Shown: positions 40,174 through 50,666 of the stretch, piece by piece | Numbering within the stretch: position 1 is the stretch's first letter | How the letters are laid out: each line of letters starts with the position of its first letter | Assembly (NCBI GenBank): GCA_027490465.1 | Contig: JAIXXZ010000074.1 | Span: 1-64,000 of the forward strand | Source: Oxalobacteraceae bacterium | Lineage (GTDB): Bacteria > Pseudomonadota > Gammaproteobacteria > Burkholderiales > Burkholderiaceae_D | Direction: 5' to 3' | DNA length: 64,000 nt | The notes under the pieces: model-generated | The model's database searches: none | Told to the model about the DNA's origin: nothing | The model's input: only the letters and a program-made list of their open reading frames with translations | Program-made: the position numbers and the translations under genes

Positions 40174-43044
40174 TCAGGCGCGCTTCTTTTCTTTTTTCGG
40201 CAGCAGCAAGGGCGCCAGATATTTGCCGGTGAAGCTGGCCGAATTTTTTGCTACCTGTTCCGGTGTGCCGCTGGCAATGATCTGACCACCCCCTGCGCCG
40301 CCTTCCGGGCCGAGATCCACTAGCCAATCTGCTGTTTTGATCACATCCAGATTGTGTTCAATGATGACGACCGTGTTGCCCTGATCACGCAAGCGATGTA
40401 TCACTTTCAGCAGCAGCGCAATGTCATGGAAGTGCAGTCCCGTGGTGGGTTCATCAAGGATATAGAGTGTGCGTCCGGTATCGCGTTTGGAGAGTTCCAG
40501 TGAAAGCTTCACGCGCTGGGCTTCGCCACCCGAGAGCGTCGTCGCACTTTGTCCCAGACGTATATAGCCCAGACCAACATCCAGCAAGGTCTGCAGCTTG
40601 CGAGCGATCAGCGGCACCGGTTTGAAAAATGCGTGCGCATCTTCAACGGTCATCTCGAGCACATCCGTGATGTTTTTGCCTTTGTACTGTACTTCCAGCG
40701 TTTCTCGGTTGTAGCGCTTGCCATGGCAGACATCGCAGGGCACATATACGTCGGGCAGGAAGTGCATTTCGACCTTCAGTACACCATCACCCTGACACGA
40801 TTCGCAACGGCCGCCTTTGACGTTGAACGAGAACCGTCCTGCCGAGTAGCCGCGTTCTTTTGCCTGTGGCACAGTAGAAAACAATTCGCGAATCGGGGTG
40901 AATACACCGGTGTAAGTCGCCGGATTCGAGCGTGGTGTACGTCCTATTGGTGCCTGGTCGACAGAAATCACTTTGTCGAAATGTTCAAGCCCGGTGACTT
41001 TGTCGTATTCCGAAGGCTCGGCCTGAGAGCCGTACAAATGACGAGCCAGCACGCGATACAGCGTGTCGTTGACCAATGTGGATTTTCCCGAGCCGGACAC
41101 GCCAGTCACACAAGTGAGCAGACCGACGGGCAGCTCGAGATCCACCGCTTTGAGGTTATTGCCCCGCGCACCGCTGATGATCAGCTGCTTTTTCAGGTCG
41201 GGTTTAATGCGTTGTTCCGGTACCGCGATGGAGAGACTGCCGTTCAGATACTGGGCTGTGAGCGATTCGCGATGCTTCAGGATATCGGCCAGCGAGCCGT
41301 GCGCGATCACTTCACCGCCATGCACGCCTGCGCCCAATCCCATGTCCACTACGTGATCGGCGCAACGGATCGCGTCTTCATCATGCTCGACCACCAGCAC
41401 GGTGTTACCGATATCTCTCAAGTGTTTGAGTGTCGCGATCAGCCTGTCGTTATCGCGCTGATGCAATCCGATTGAGGGTTCGTCGAGCACATACATCACG
41501 CCAGTCAGGCCCGAGCCGATTTGCGAGGCGAGACGGATACGCTGGGCTTCCCCGCCCGACAAGGTGTCCGCACTGCGGTCCAATGACAGATACTCCAGGC
41601 CCACGTTATTCAGGAATTTCAGTCGCGAGATGATTTCGCGAATGATGCGTTCGGCGATTTCTTTTTTTGCGCCCTTGAGTTTCAAGGTTTCGAAGAATTC
41701 CAGTGTGCCGCGCAGCGGCATTTCGGCCACCTGATAAATCGCGCGTTGCTGTGCGCCGGTACCGACCTTGACAAAGCGCGCTTCCACGCGCAGGCGCGTG
41801 CCTTCGCACTCGGGGCATTGCTGCTCATTGATGAACTTGGACAGCTCCTCCTTGACGGCCAGCGAATCCGTTTCGTGATAACGACGCTCAAGATTGTTCA
41901 CAACGCCTTCAAAAGTGTGCTCCTTGATCACGGTGCGACCGCGTTCATTGACATAGGCAAACGGAATTTTTTCCTTGCCCGAGCCATACAAAACGACTTG
42001 CTGCGCTTTTTCAGGCAAATTCTCGAAGGGCACGTCGACATCGAATTTGTAATGCTTGGCCAGCGATGACAACATCTGAAAGTAAAACTGATTGCGCCTG
42101 TCCCAGCCTTTCACCGCACCTGAGGCCAGCGAGAGATTAGGAAAGGCGACGATGCGTTTGGGATCGAAAAATTCAATATGCCCGAGACCGTCACATTCCG
42201 GACAGGCGCCCATGGGATTGTTGAATGAGAACAGGCGCGGCTCCAATTCCTGCAGCGAGTAACCGCAAATCGGGCAGGCGAACTTGTTCGAAAAAACTTG
42301 TTCCCGGCCACTGTCCATGTCAAGCGCAGTCGCACGACCCTCCGCCAGTCGCAGCGAGGTTTCAAAGCTCTCGGCGAGCCGTTGTTTGATATCGCTTTTC
42401 ACTTTGACGCGATCAATGACCACGTCGATGGTGTGCTTTTCTGTTTTTTTCAGTTTGGGTAGATCGTCCGCCTCATAGATTTTTGCCTTCCCAGTGCCGC
42501 TTTGTATGCGAAAGCGCACAAAGCCTTGCGCTTGCATCTGCTCGAAGAGGTCGCTGTGCTCGCCTTTGCGGTTGGCGATGACGGGCGCCAGAATCATCAG
42601 CTTGGTGTCTTCCGGCATTGCCAGCACGGTATCCACCATCTGCGATACCGATTGTGCAGCGAGCGGATTTTCGGGGTGGTCAGGGCAGTGCGGAGTGCCC
42701 ACGCGTGCGTACAACAAGCGCAGATAGTCATGGATTTCCGTGACGGTGCCGACGGTAGAGCGCGGATTGTGCGACGTGGCTTTCTGTTCTATCGATATCG
42801 CCGGCGACAAGCCTTCGATCATGTCCACATCGGGTTTTTCCATCAGTTGCAGAAACTGACGTGCATAAGCCGAGAGTGATTCGACATAGCGACGCTGGCC
42901 TTCGGCGTACAGCGTGTCAAAGGCCAGCGACGATTTTCCTGAGCCCGAGAGTCCGGTGATCACGATCAGCTTGTTACGCGGCAGATCGAGACTGATATTT
43001 TTCAGGTTGTGGGTGCGTGCACCTCGAATGCGGATTTCTTCCAT
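40174..43044 (-). CDS. uvrA: UvrABC system protein A
   Basis: UvrA is the damage-sensing ATPase of nucleotide excision repair. The protein is 955 residues from the ATG at 43044 ([17 protein letters not shown]); the track start adds 15 atypical residues. It has two ABC modules with Walker [15 protein letters not shown] and [14 protein letters not shown], two signatures ([16 protein letters not shown] and [15 protein letters not shown]), and zinc-binding cysteine pairs (CPICGY...CPEC; CESCQG...CDVC). It is divergent from the MFS gene. Confidence 0.97.
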
Positions 43045-43102
43045 GCGCTGATTTGGCCTTGAGTACAACGGGTTGGTGCTTTTTTGCAAAAACCGCAGCT
43101 CA

Positions 43103-43131
43103 TTGAGCGCGGATCAACCTGTTACTATAGC
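43103..43131 (+). promoter_or_regulatory. Candidate sigma-70 promoter for the MFS gene
   Basis: TTGAGC and TATAGC hexamers are separated by exactly 17 bases, each matching four of six consensus positions. The TATAGC lies 57 bases before the MFS start codon, in the uvrA/MFS divergent gap. Confidence 0.5.
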
Positions 43132-43187
43132 GGGTTTTCGTAACCTGCTGATGGCATTGCTTATGCCGTGCCTGTCTCGCTTCCCCT

Positions 43188-44414
43188 ATGTCTTCAACGA
43201 CAGCCCCTGACGATACCCGAATGAACGCTCTCGAAGTGCGTGCCAGCGTATCCCTGGCTTCCGTATTCGGTTTGCGCATGCTGGGACTGTTTCTCATTCT
43301 TCCTGTCTTTGCGGTCCATGCCAAATCACTGGCAGGTGGCGAGAGCGCGATATTGGTGGGTTTGGCCATGGGCATGTATGGCCTCACGCAGGCGATAGGG
43401 CAAATCCCGTTTGGCATCGCCTCGGATCGTTATGGCAGAAAGCGCATCATCCTGATTGGTCTGGTGCTGTTCATTCTCGGTTCCCTGATCGCGGCGGTGG
43501 ACGAAAGTATTTATTGGGTGATTGTGGGCCGCGCAGTGCAGGGCGCTGGTGCGGTATCTGCTGCTGTCACTGCGTTGATTGCGGACTCGACCCGCGATGA
43601 GCACCGTACGAAAGCCATGGCGCTGGTGGGTGCGTCCATTGGTCTGACGTATGCGGCATCACTGGTGCTGGCGCCCTTGCTTTACACATCGGTTGGCATG
43701 CGAGGCATGTTCTTGCTGGTGGCACTGCTGGCGCTGTTTGCGATTGCGCTGGTAATTTTCGTTGCGCCGCAAGCGCCTCCGCGTTCACCGGAAACAGTGT
43801 CATTTCAGACGGTGATTCGCGATCCTGAACTCATGCGCATGAATTTTGGCGTCTTTTCGCTCCACGCGATACAGATGTCGATGTTTGTCGTGCTCCCCAA
43901 TATTCTGGTCAGTGCTGGTGGCATTCCCATCGATCAGCACTGGAAAATTTATTTGCCTGTTGTGCTCGCCTCTTTCATTCTGATGCTGCCGCCGATTTTT
44001 CTGGGTGAAAAGCGTGGTCGCATGAAGCAGGTGTTTGTATCGGCAATCGCCTTGCTGTTGCTGGTCGAGATAGGTTTGCGCGCTGCCGTGACGCAACCAT
44101 CGTTGTCGTTCGAAATGGTGGTGATGCTGTTGCTGGCATTTTTTGTTGCTTTTAATATTCTGGAAGCCAGTCAGCCTTCGCTGGTTTCTCGCATGGCGCC
44201 GGCCGGTGCACGTGGCGCGGCGCTTGGGGTTTACAACACGATGCAGGCAATTGGCTTGTTTGCCGGTGGCGCGGGCGGTGGTTTGCTTGCCCAGTATTTT
44301 GGTGGCCCTGCAGTGTTCACCGCAGGCTGTCTGCTGATAGTCGGCTGGCTTATAATTGCGGCTTCCATGAAAAACCTGCCTCGTCGTGCGCGACGCGAGG
44401 CTGTTCCCACCTGA
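43188..44414 (+). CDS. Major facilitator superfamily transporter (YajR-like)
   Basis: This is a 12-helix MFS protein of 408 residues. The motif A loop is GIASDRYGRKRIILIG, and motif C-like glycine-rich helices (GASIGLTYAASLVLAPLL) suggest a drug:H+ antiporter-type carrier. The N-terminal region VFGLRMLGLFLILPVFAVHAK resembles E. coli YajR, but the C-terminal ferredoxin-like YAM domain of YajR is missing. The substrate is unknown. Location between uvrA and ssb is a common betaproteobacterial arrangement. Confidence 0.82.
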   Translation: MSSTTAPDDTRMNALEVRASVSLASVFGLRMLGLFLILPVFAVHAKSLAGGESAILVGLAMGMYGLTQAIGQIPFGIASDRYGRKRIILIGLVLFILGSLIAAVDESIYWVIVGRAVQGAGAVSAAVTALIADSTRDEHRTKAMALVGASIGLTYAASLVLAPLLYTSVGMRGMFLLVALLALFAIALVIFVAPQAPPRSPETVSFQTVIRDPELMRMNFGVFSLHAIQMSMFVVLPNILVSAGGIPIDQHWKIYLPVVLASFILMLPPIFLGEKRGRMKQVFVSAIALLLLVEIGLRAAVTQPSLSFEMVVMLLLAFFVAFNILEASQPSLVSRMAPAGARGAALGVYNTMQAIGLFAGGAGGGLLAQYFGGPAVFTAGCLLIVGWLIIAASMKNLPRRARREAVPT

Positions 44415-44455
44415 GTTTCCCACTCTGTTACGCGTTTTCCTGACAGGAGAAGTCT

Positions 44456-44935
44456 ATGGCATCGGTCAATAAAGTCACTATCGTTGGCAATCTGGGGCGT
44501 GATCCCGAAACGCGTTACATGCCCAGTGGTGATGCAATGACCAATATTGCAGTCGCCACGACGGACAAATGGAAAGACAAAACCACTGGCGAGCAAAAAG
44601 AAGCGACTGAGTGGCATCGGATCGCGTTTTTTGGCAAGCTGGCCGAGATTGCTGGCCAGTACCTGAAAAAAGGTTCGCAAGTCTACGTCGAAGGCAAGCT
44701 TCGCACACGCAAGTGGACCGATAAAGATGGTGTTGAAAAATATACAACCGAAATCATCGCCGACTCGATGCAAATGCTCGGTAGTCGTCAGGGCATGGGC
44801 GGTGGCAGTGCTGCGATGGATGACAACAGTTTTGGTGGTAACGGGTCTGCCTCTCGCAGCTCGGCACCGGCATCGCGTGCGCCGGCAAAGCAAGCCCCCA
44901 ATCTGTCCGATATGGATGACGATATTCCTTTCTGA
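44456..44935 (+). CDS. ssb: Single-stranded DNA-binding protein
   Basis: SSB coats single-stranded DNA and recruits replication and repair proteins. The 159-residue protein has an OB-fold ([20 protein letters not shown] through [20 protein letters not shown]), a flexible Gly/Ser/Ala-rich linker and the conserved acidic tip DMDDDIPF that binds partners. A clear AGGAGA precedes the ATG. The ssb-uvrA neighbourhood matches the E. coli theme of adjacent repair genes. Confidence 0.97.
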
Positions 44936-45015
44936 CGCACGACGCTGCATGATCGCCGCGTTGGCCCGTGGCGGTGCGGTGGCGCGGTTAGCGCTTTCAC
45001 AGGGCTGAGGCCACC

Positions 45016-45810
45016 ATGGCCCGTTTGCCACGTCTTGTCGTACCCAACCAGCTTCATCATGTCATTGCACAGGGTCACAACGACCAGCCGATCGTGCGTG
45101 ATGATGCCGACCATCAGGCATTTCTGACTTGGTTGCGCGAGGCCGCCCGGCAGTCTCGTGTGGCCATCCATGCCTATGTGGTGCTGCCGAGTCGATTGCA
45201 GCTCCTGGCCACGCCGGCTGATGACACAGGTCTGAGCAAGATGATGCAGTCGCTCGGTCGTCTCTACGTTCCTTATTTCAATGCGCGTTATGGCCGGACC
45301 GGCGGTTTGTGGGAAGGGCGTTTCCGCGCAACCGTGCTTGATCCTGCTGCCTATTTTGTGCCCTGTGCCTGCCTGATTGAGTATCAACCGGTAAGCACCG
45401 GCCTTGTGGCGGATGTGGCCGCGTATCCCTGGTCCAGTCATGCCCATCACGCCGGGCATCAAAAAGAACCCTGGCTCTCGGATCATCCGGCGTATTGGGC
45501 TTTGGGCAATACGCCCTTCGAGCGAGAGGCCGCGTATCAGCAAGTCAGCCAATCTCCTGTCGATAGTGCGGTGAGCGAGAAGATTTGGTTGGCCACCCGC
45601 AAAGCCTGGGCCTTGGGATCAGAGGAGTTTTGCCGGCGGCTCGCCAAGCTCACGGCGCGTCGCCTCGCACCGGTCAGCCGCGGTCGTCCGCGAAAGGTGG
45701 TGGTTGCGCAGGGCGCGGCCGCGGCCACAGCAGTTAAGCCGGTAGAGAAAGTCCGACCCCTCCGTTCCTCGCCTCAAACAAGAGCAATTACCCCGGAAAA
45801 AGCGGATTAA
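45016..45810 (+). CDS. REP-associated tyrosine transposase (RAYT) relative lacking the HUH histidines
   Basis: The 264-residue protein resembles the Y1/TnpA-REP (RAYT) family. The opening MARLPRLVVPNQLHHVIAQG, the region YFNARYGRTGGLWEGRFRAT and the C-terminal RRGRPRK-type tail (VSRGRPRKVVV) are all family features. The usual catalytic stretch NHxH within AYV-MP-NHVHLL reads AYVVLPSRLQLL, so both metal-binding histidines are replaced by Arg and Gln. The usual IELNPVRAGLV reads IEYQPVSTGLV. The putative Tyr region is kept. It is probably catalytically dead as a HUH nuclease, either decaying or repurposed; the frame is still open. Confidence 0.75.
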   Translation: MARLPRLVVPNQLHHVIAQGHNDQPIVRDDADHQAFLTWLREAARQSRVAIHAYVVLPSRLQLLATPADDTGLSKMMQSLGRLYVPYFNARYGRTGGLWEGRFRATVLDPAAYFVPCACLIEYQPVSTGLVADVAAYPWSSHAHHAGHQKEPWLSDHPAYWALGNTPFEREAAYQQVSQSPVDSAVSEKIWLATRKAWALGSEEFCRRLAKLTARRLAPVSRGRPRKVVVAQGAAAATAVKPVEKVRPLRSSPQTRAITPEKAD

Positions 45811-45849
45811 TTTGCTGCAACATGGGGCAAAAACCGCACCAGCATTACT

Positions 45850-45916
45850 CTGACCCTATTTAATTCTGCACGGTTCCAATGCACATTTTAATTGGTATCC
45901 GACCCTAATTAAATTG
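45850..45916 (+). repeat. Direct repeat of GACCCTA/AATTAA motifs between the RAYT gene and gltB
   Basis: CTGACCCTATTTAATT (45850-45865) and CCGACCCTAATTAAATT (45900-45916) repeat a GACCCTA plus A/T block, 50 bases apart; a shorter CCGACCC also occurs near 45753. Similar GACCC/AATTAA tracts often flank RAYT genes, so these may be remains of the element's recognition sequence. They also overlap the likely gltB promoter region (TTGCTG and TATCCT, 17 bases apart, at about 45919-45947). Confidence 0.4.
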
Positions 45917-45980
45917 ATTGCTGTTCGTATTGCATTGCACTATCCTTGTCAACCCTTTTCATTGGCTGTGGAGTACTGCG

Positions 45981-50666
<4,686 letters not shown>

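Follow-up and report, generated by a model that had tools for sequence, protein, structure and literature searches.

A catalytically depleted RAYT/TIRYT-type protein as a candidate regulator of the glutamate synthase gene gltB in Oxalobacteraceae

Introduction

What keeps RAYT-type transposases in genomes as vertically inherited genes of single copy has yet to be explained. The locus analysed here, which lies in a window of 64,000 nucleotides (the whole stretch of DNA studied, from contig JAIXXZ010000074.1 of an Oxalobacteraceae bacterium), raises that question for a family member that was described in the initial annotation as having lost both HUH histidines while keeping an open frame. Two readings were offered there: early decay of the gene, or a non-catalytic DNA-binding role next to ssb. 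Is such a protein dying or is it being kept and, if kept, for what?

Results

Fold and family of the window protein

The ORF is an intact 264-residue frame in the ssb–gltB interval, as initially annotated (Table 1). It matches the NCBIfam model REP_Tyr_transpos (NF047646) at 3.4e-13 and 49.7 bits, under the curated cut-off of 80; HUH-bearing relatives are also under this cut-off, at 64–78 bits. Against PF01797 it scores 14.1 bits, under the cut-off of 23, as compared with 42–49 bits for HUH-bearing relatives, and a PF01797 scan of the window genome returned nothing above threshold because the motif itself has been lost. While a phmmer search of the PDB with the single window protein gave no true match, a profile built from the relatives aligns to the Escherichia coli TnpA-REP structure, 4ER8. 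Most core blocks of the AlphaFold model have pLDDT >90, and the best structural match of the model in Foldseek is 4er8_A (probability 1.00, TM-score 0.72 over the target). The family-model match, the profile alignment to 4ER8 and the structural match together make it firm that this is, by fold, a RAYT/TIRYT-type HUH protein with a Y1 HUH fold. Its C-terminal domain is conserved, helical and of high pLDDT, and has no Pfam HTH match; the C-terminal part of subclass 2.1 TnpA has been called HTH-like (PMC6006769).

Table 1. Features of the locus, in window coordinates.
Feature	Position	Strand	Remarks
ssb	44456..44935	+	upstream neighbour in 21/21 genus genomes
HUH-less RAYT/TIRYT-family protein, 264 aa	45016..45810	+	Y1 fold, C-terminal helical domain, GRP tail
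Degenerate HUH motif SRLQ, residues 59–62	45190..45201	+	canonical NHxH
Degenerate Y motif LIEYQPV, residues 120–126	45373..45393	+	canonical YIELNPV; catalytic Tyr and metal-ligand Asn gone
C-terminal helical domain, residues 148–227	45457..45696	+	ends in conserved RGRP motif
Box 1, TIR-like	45844..45865	+	ATTACTCTGACCCTATTTAATT; 30.4 bits
Box 2, TIR-like	45893..45914	+	TGGTATCCGACCCTAATTAAAT; 16.2 bits; 49 bp after box 1
Presumed gltB promoter	45918..45946	+	TTGCTG, 17-bp spacer, TATCCT; inside near-invariant TATTGCATTGCACTATCCTT block; assigned by eye
gltB, glutamate synthase large subunit	45981..50666	+	presumed target

All four catalytic positions are replaced

In alignment, residues 59–62 of the window protein read SRLQ where HUH-bearing relatives carry NHxH or DHxH, so that the reported loss of both histidines stands. 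The altered LNPVRA block, reported as YQPVST, is equally real; it forms part of LIEYQPVST (residues 120–128), which aligns to YIELNPVRA of the relatives. The ‘Y---NP’ motif of class-2 Y1 proteins contains the catalytic tyrosine, and its asparagine binds metal together with the histidines (PMC6006769). The same block thus holds two further losses that had gone unremarked, those of the nucleophilic tyrosine (Y120L) and the metal-ligand asparagine (N124Q), which with H60R and H62Q complete the replacement of all four catalytic positions. Both the 4ER8 profile alignment and Foldseek back the alignment register. As judged from its residues, the window protein is shown to be dead in nuclease chemistry.

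The gene is maintained by purifying selection across the genus

One full-length copy lies between ssb and gltB in each of the 21 genus genomes (G006 has an additional weak partial match), and the window's genus forms a single clade (100/100) on the protein tree described below. Position 60 is Arg and N124 is lost in 21 of 21; being common to all these genomes, the loss of H60 and N124 is more than a chance event. The literal SRLQ variant is a different matter: the first histidine and the asparagine are gone throughout, but SRLQ itself occurs in only five species, the others reading NRLQ, NRIQ, SRVQ, ARIQ, NRLH, GRVH, NRVQ or DRVH.

Within clades of the genus, dN/dS (Nei–Gojobori) is mostly 0.04–0.14 over residues 1–227, with the HUH domain (0.07–0.10) and the C-terminal domain (0.05–0.11) alike constrained, as compared with 0.02–0.045 for ssb and about 0.01 for gltB. 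Purifying selection at the ssb–gltB locus, at a dN/dS of about 0.05–0.11, is borne out; the gene is under such selection across the genus and is inherited vertically at one place.

These data bear directly on simple decay, in which a dying transposase gene has been caught before its frame breaks. The absence of the catalytic residues would fit, as would the tail after residue 227, which is elongated, poorly conserved and relaxed (dN/dS 0.38–0.66). Nevertheless, the frame is intact in 21 of 21 species despite synonymous divergence of up to about 1.8, and dN/dS is about 0.1, so that decay is contradicted within the genus by purifying selection. Rather than a lone strain that differs from its relatives and is free of constraint, we find a loss shared by 21 of 21 genomes and constraint in both domains. 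We regard early decay, the first of the two readings proposed initially, as very improbable.

Selection on the protein also bears on the idea that the locus acts as RNA. Small RNAs derived from tnpA are known from IS200 transcripts in Salmonella. Selection here acts on the protein, however, and an Rfam scan of positions 43000–47000 gave no match, leaving the RNA reading scarcely credible.

gltB, not ssb, is the general neighbour

Among 295 genomes of the family, which is Oxalobacteraceae going by record titles, each at least 90% complete and many of them MAGs, 294 have a RAYT homologue, usually just upstream of gltB. Likewise gltB is present in 294; the one genome without it, G071 (2.2 Mb), is also the only sampled complete family genome without RAYT, and none of the 295 keeps gltB while lacking RAYT. 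The co-loss in G071 is a single event and could reflect one deletion of neighbouring genes. At 89 of 99 distinct RAYT loci examined, gltB lies within 1 kb downstream on the same strand, and records of gltB-linked RAYT include Herbaspirillum, Undibacterium, Collimonas, Massilia and Janthinobacterium. The linkage extends to some other families of the order. Close adjacency to ssb, in contrast, is confined to the window's genus and some relatives. Because gltB adjacency spans the family and reaches others while that of ssb is limited, gltB, and not ssb, is probably the functional partner.

The protein could instead be kept for some other job in binding ssDNA or hairpins, perhaps in repair or alongside SSB at the replication fork. 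The boxes found near gltB (below) would then be an unrelated cis element or the operator of another regulator. The adjacency of ssb in every genus genome would agree with this, as would the binding of ssDNA hairpins by the Y1 fold in 4ER8 and IS608. Against it, gltB is a general neighbour in the family and ssb, at close range, is not; the boxes are of the protein family's own repeat type and stay at gltB when the gene is elsewhere; and the window genome has, by a 13-base box pattern, no dispersed repeats to serve as substrates. We consider such a role unlikely, if less so than the other alternatives.

The chemistry was lost repeatedly and selectively

In a tree of 127 proteins, built with the motif columns left out, the first histidine (H60) changes state 14 times, at least 10 of them on supported branches; we prefer the floor of 10 set by branch support to the raw count. 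The tree by itself cannot separate gain from loss, and the changes are read as losses because RAYTs and TIRYTs as a rule possess HUH (PMC2817692, PMC3733652). N124 was lost along with H60 in 8.9 of 10 independent pairs and never in the opposite sense (sign test, p about 0.004).

We compared 100 columns that are conserved in HUH-bearing relatives, leaving out the long-branch, apparently HUH-less rows L138, L139, L141, L147, L186, L194 and L201. The 96 non-catalytic columns are 86% kept in the genus and 94% kept in other HUH-less lineages, against 0% for H60 and 0–6% for N124. By this comparison the loss of chemistry is selective, the other conserved positions staying; this retention, like the conservation of the box DNA, speaks further against decay.

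Six of the rows left out (L138, L139, L141, L147, L194 and L201), from this and other families, are gltB-linked homologues that have diverged strongly, sit on long branches and have scrambled HUH motifs; they could be further repurposed or decaying copies.

Former terminal repeats are conserved at the gltB promoter

Immediately before the gltB promoter stand two copies of a terminal-repeat box, of pattern GACTCTGWCCC…, at a spacing of 48–49 bp. Inverted repeats of consensus GGGGWSAS flank TIRYT genes (PMC3733652), and the boxes match this consensus when read on the other strand, which identifies them as the RAYT/TIRYT family's own kind of repeat. Many HUH-bearing relatives have one repeat upstream, at the presumed promoter of the RAYT gene, and two more downstream; these two are oriented oppositely to the first, are spaced by 48–49 bp and precede the gltB promoter. 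The upstream box was found in none of the 21 genus genomes; the downstream pair stays, at 49-bp spacing. A generic sigma-70 promoter scan listed no promoter, the presumed gltB promoter included.

Mean pairwise identity across the genus is 0.77 for box 1 and 0.78 for box 2, as compared with 0.39 for the 32-bp spacer between them, 0.32 for the flank and 0.37 for four-fold sites. As measured by this contrast in identity, selection is shown to act on the boxes. The spacer varies in sequence but is constant in length, the pattern to be expected if two protein-binding sites are held in a set geometry. Box 2 adjoins the −35 region, and its conservation might be owed to the promoter itself or to a different regulator; in the DRVH clade this box reads TTTGACCC, which is under the matrix threshold.

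Outside the genus, a same-strand box pair is present at 48 of the 54 family gltB promoters examined. All ten family genomes without RAYT within 1.5 kb upstream of gltB (G021, G030, G031, G056–G060, G065 and G076) keep the pair there, 48–49 bp apart. No box was found upstream of gltB in 16 genomes of other families without a gltB-linked RAYT, a presence/absence comparison between families that is confounded with phylogeny. Two genomes with a gltB-linked RAYT, G027 of the same family and G039 of another, have no box by the matrix; the training set of this matrix consisted of family members from outside the genus, which makes box scores dependent on family.

The ancestral element might have contributed only cis DNA, that is the gltB promoter and its upstream element, the protein being retained to regulate its own gene or to silence its repeats and having no part in the control of gltB. 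The boxes do make up the upstream portion of that promoter, and intact relatives also have boxes at RAYT's own promoter. In the genus, however, the own-promoter box has gone and only the gltB boxes remain, yet the protein is still constrained; we think this arrangement distinctly unlikely.

In five Undibacterium loci (L048, L057, L069, L078 and L100) RAYT lies away from gltB and HUH has also been lost (DRLH, NRFH or DRFH). A weak box in the opposite orientation overlaps the TACAAT of the RAYT gene's own presumed promoter, an overlap that suggests autoregulation at these loci.

The boxes are not dispersed in the window genome

A search of the window genome with a 13-base box pattern, following the suggestion that REP palindromes be looked for, found no dispersed repeat family: there were three occurrences, the two at gltB and one that is unconserved. 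The third (G000:C65:1201), 136 bp upstream of pntA (NAD(P) transhydrogenase alpha), was considered as a second target; none of the 20 other genus genomes has a box there, and we take it to be a chance match. Exact box matches away from gltB in G003 and G019 appear, by eye, to lie within coding sequence.

In G085, by contrast, whose RAYT carries NHVH and groups with Collimonas proteins on the tree, the same pattern occurs 41 times, mostly in dispersed inverted pairs. In this Collimonas-like genome (L207; G085:C1) many of the roughly 41 TIR boxes form inverted pairs about 45 bp apart, resembling a REPIN family. Most HUH-bearing genomes are also without box dispersal, and catalysis therefore seems necessary but not sufficient for repeat spread.

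Discussion

We consider it rather probable that the window protein is a domesticated RAYT/TIRYT-type transposase, dead in its chemistry and kept as a sequence-specific DNA-binder, which most likely binds the gltB boxes and regulates gltB in trans. The conserved residues and boxes suggest a transposase-derived gene turned into a DNA-binding regulator of gltB. Of the non-catalytic DNA-binding role next to ssb that was first proposed, the DNA-binding part gains indirect support from the conserved terminal-repeat boxes at the gltB promoter; ssb as the partner does not, gltB fitting better.

In the mechanism that we envisage, the protein would have been kept for binding the former terminal repeats at gltB, and its nuclease chemistry, having become dispensable or harmful, would then have been lost many times. 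The protein would bind the two boxes, which lie just ahead of the gltB −35 element at a constant spacing of 49 bp, and once bound would regulate gltB transcription in trans, the sign of the effect being likewise conjectural. Because the boxes lie upstream of −35, an activator or looping regulator fits better than a repressor that occludes the promoter. The wider proposition, that a core family-wide transposase-derived protein controls glutamate synthase through former terminal repeats and has discarded its chemistry independently at least ten times, we hold to be evenly poised.

This lineage combines lost catalytic residues, a protein that is still under selection and a specific candidate target promoter with conserved former terminal repeats; with such a promoter at hand where catalysis is missing, a host function becomes directly testable. 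If correct, the wider proposition would supply a host function that explains the vertical persistence of single-copy RAYT-type genes, and would give the TldR regulators a counterpart with an HUH fold. Within the literature searched, no paper on a gltB-linked or HUH-less RAYT came to light.

With the RAYT protein TnpA-REP of E. coli (4ER8), the window protein shares the Y1 HUH fold, the arrangement of motifs and a single-copy, vertically inherited gene. Unlike it, the window protein lacks both histidines, the tyrosine and the asparagine, has a C-terminal helical extension and a fixed association with gltB, and resides in a genome without dispersed repeats of its own, as judged by the 13-base pattern. 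With the TIRYT or subclass 2.1 TnpA proteins it has in common the C-terminal extension, described there as HTH-like, and flanking repeats of the GGGGWSAS type (PMC3733652; Quentin 2018, PMC6006769). HUH and the tyrosine are conserved in every TIRYT listed by Di Nocera (2013; PMC3733652). In the window protein, in contrast, all of these residues have been lost; in its genus the upstream repeat has gone, so that the gene is no longer flanked on both sides, and the two downstream repeats are promoter-proximal boxes.

In TldR proteins, too, nuclease chemistry has been lost. These TnpB-related, RNA-guided transcription factors resemble our proposal in outline: a transposon-derived nuclease whose DNA binding is reused for transcription control (PMC13418256). 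They differ in being TnpB-derived and RNA-guided, whereas here an HUH Y1 protein, with no guide RNA known, would act on a chromosomal metabolic target. By analogy, TldR may be regarded as the nearest parallel in logic.
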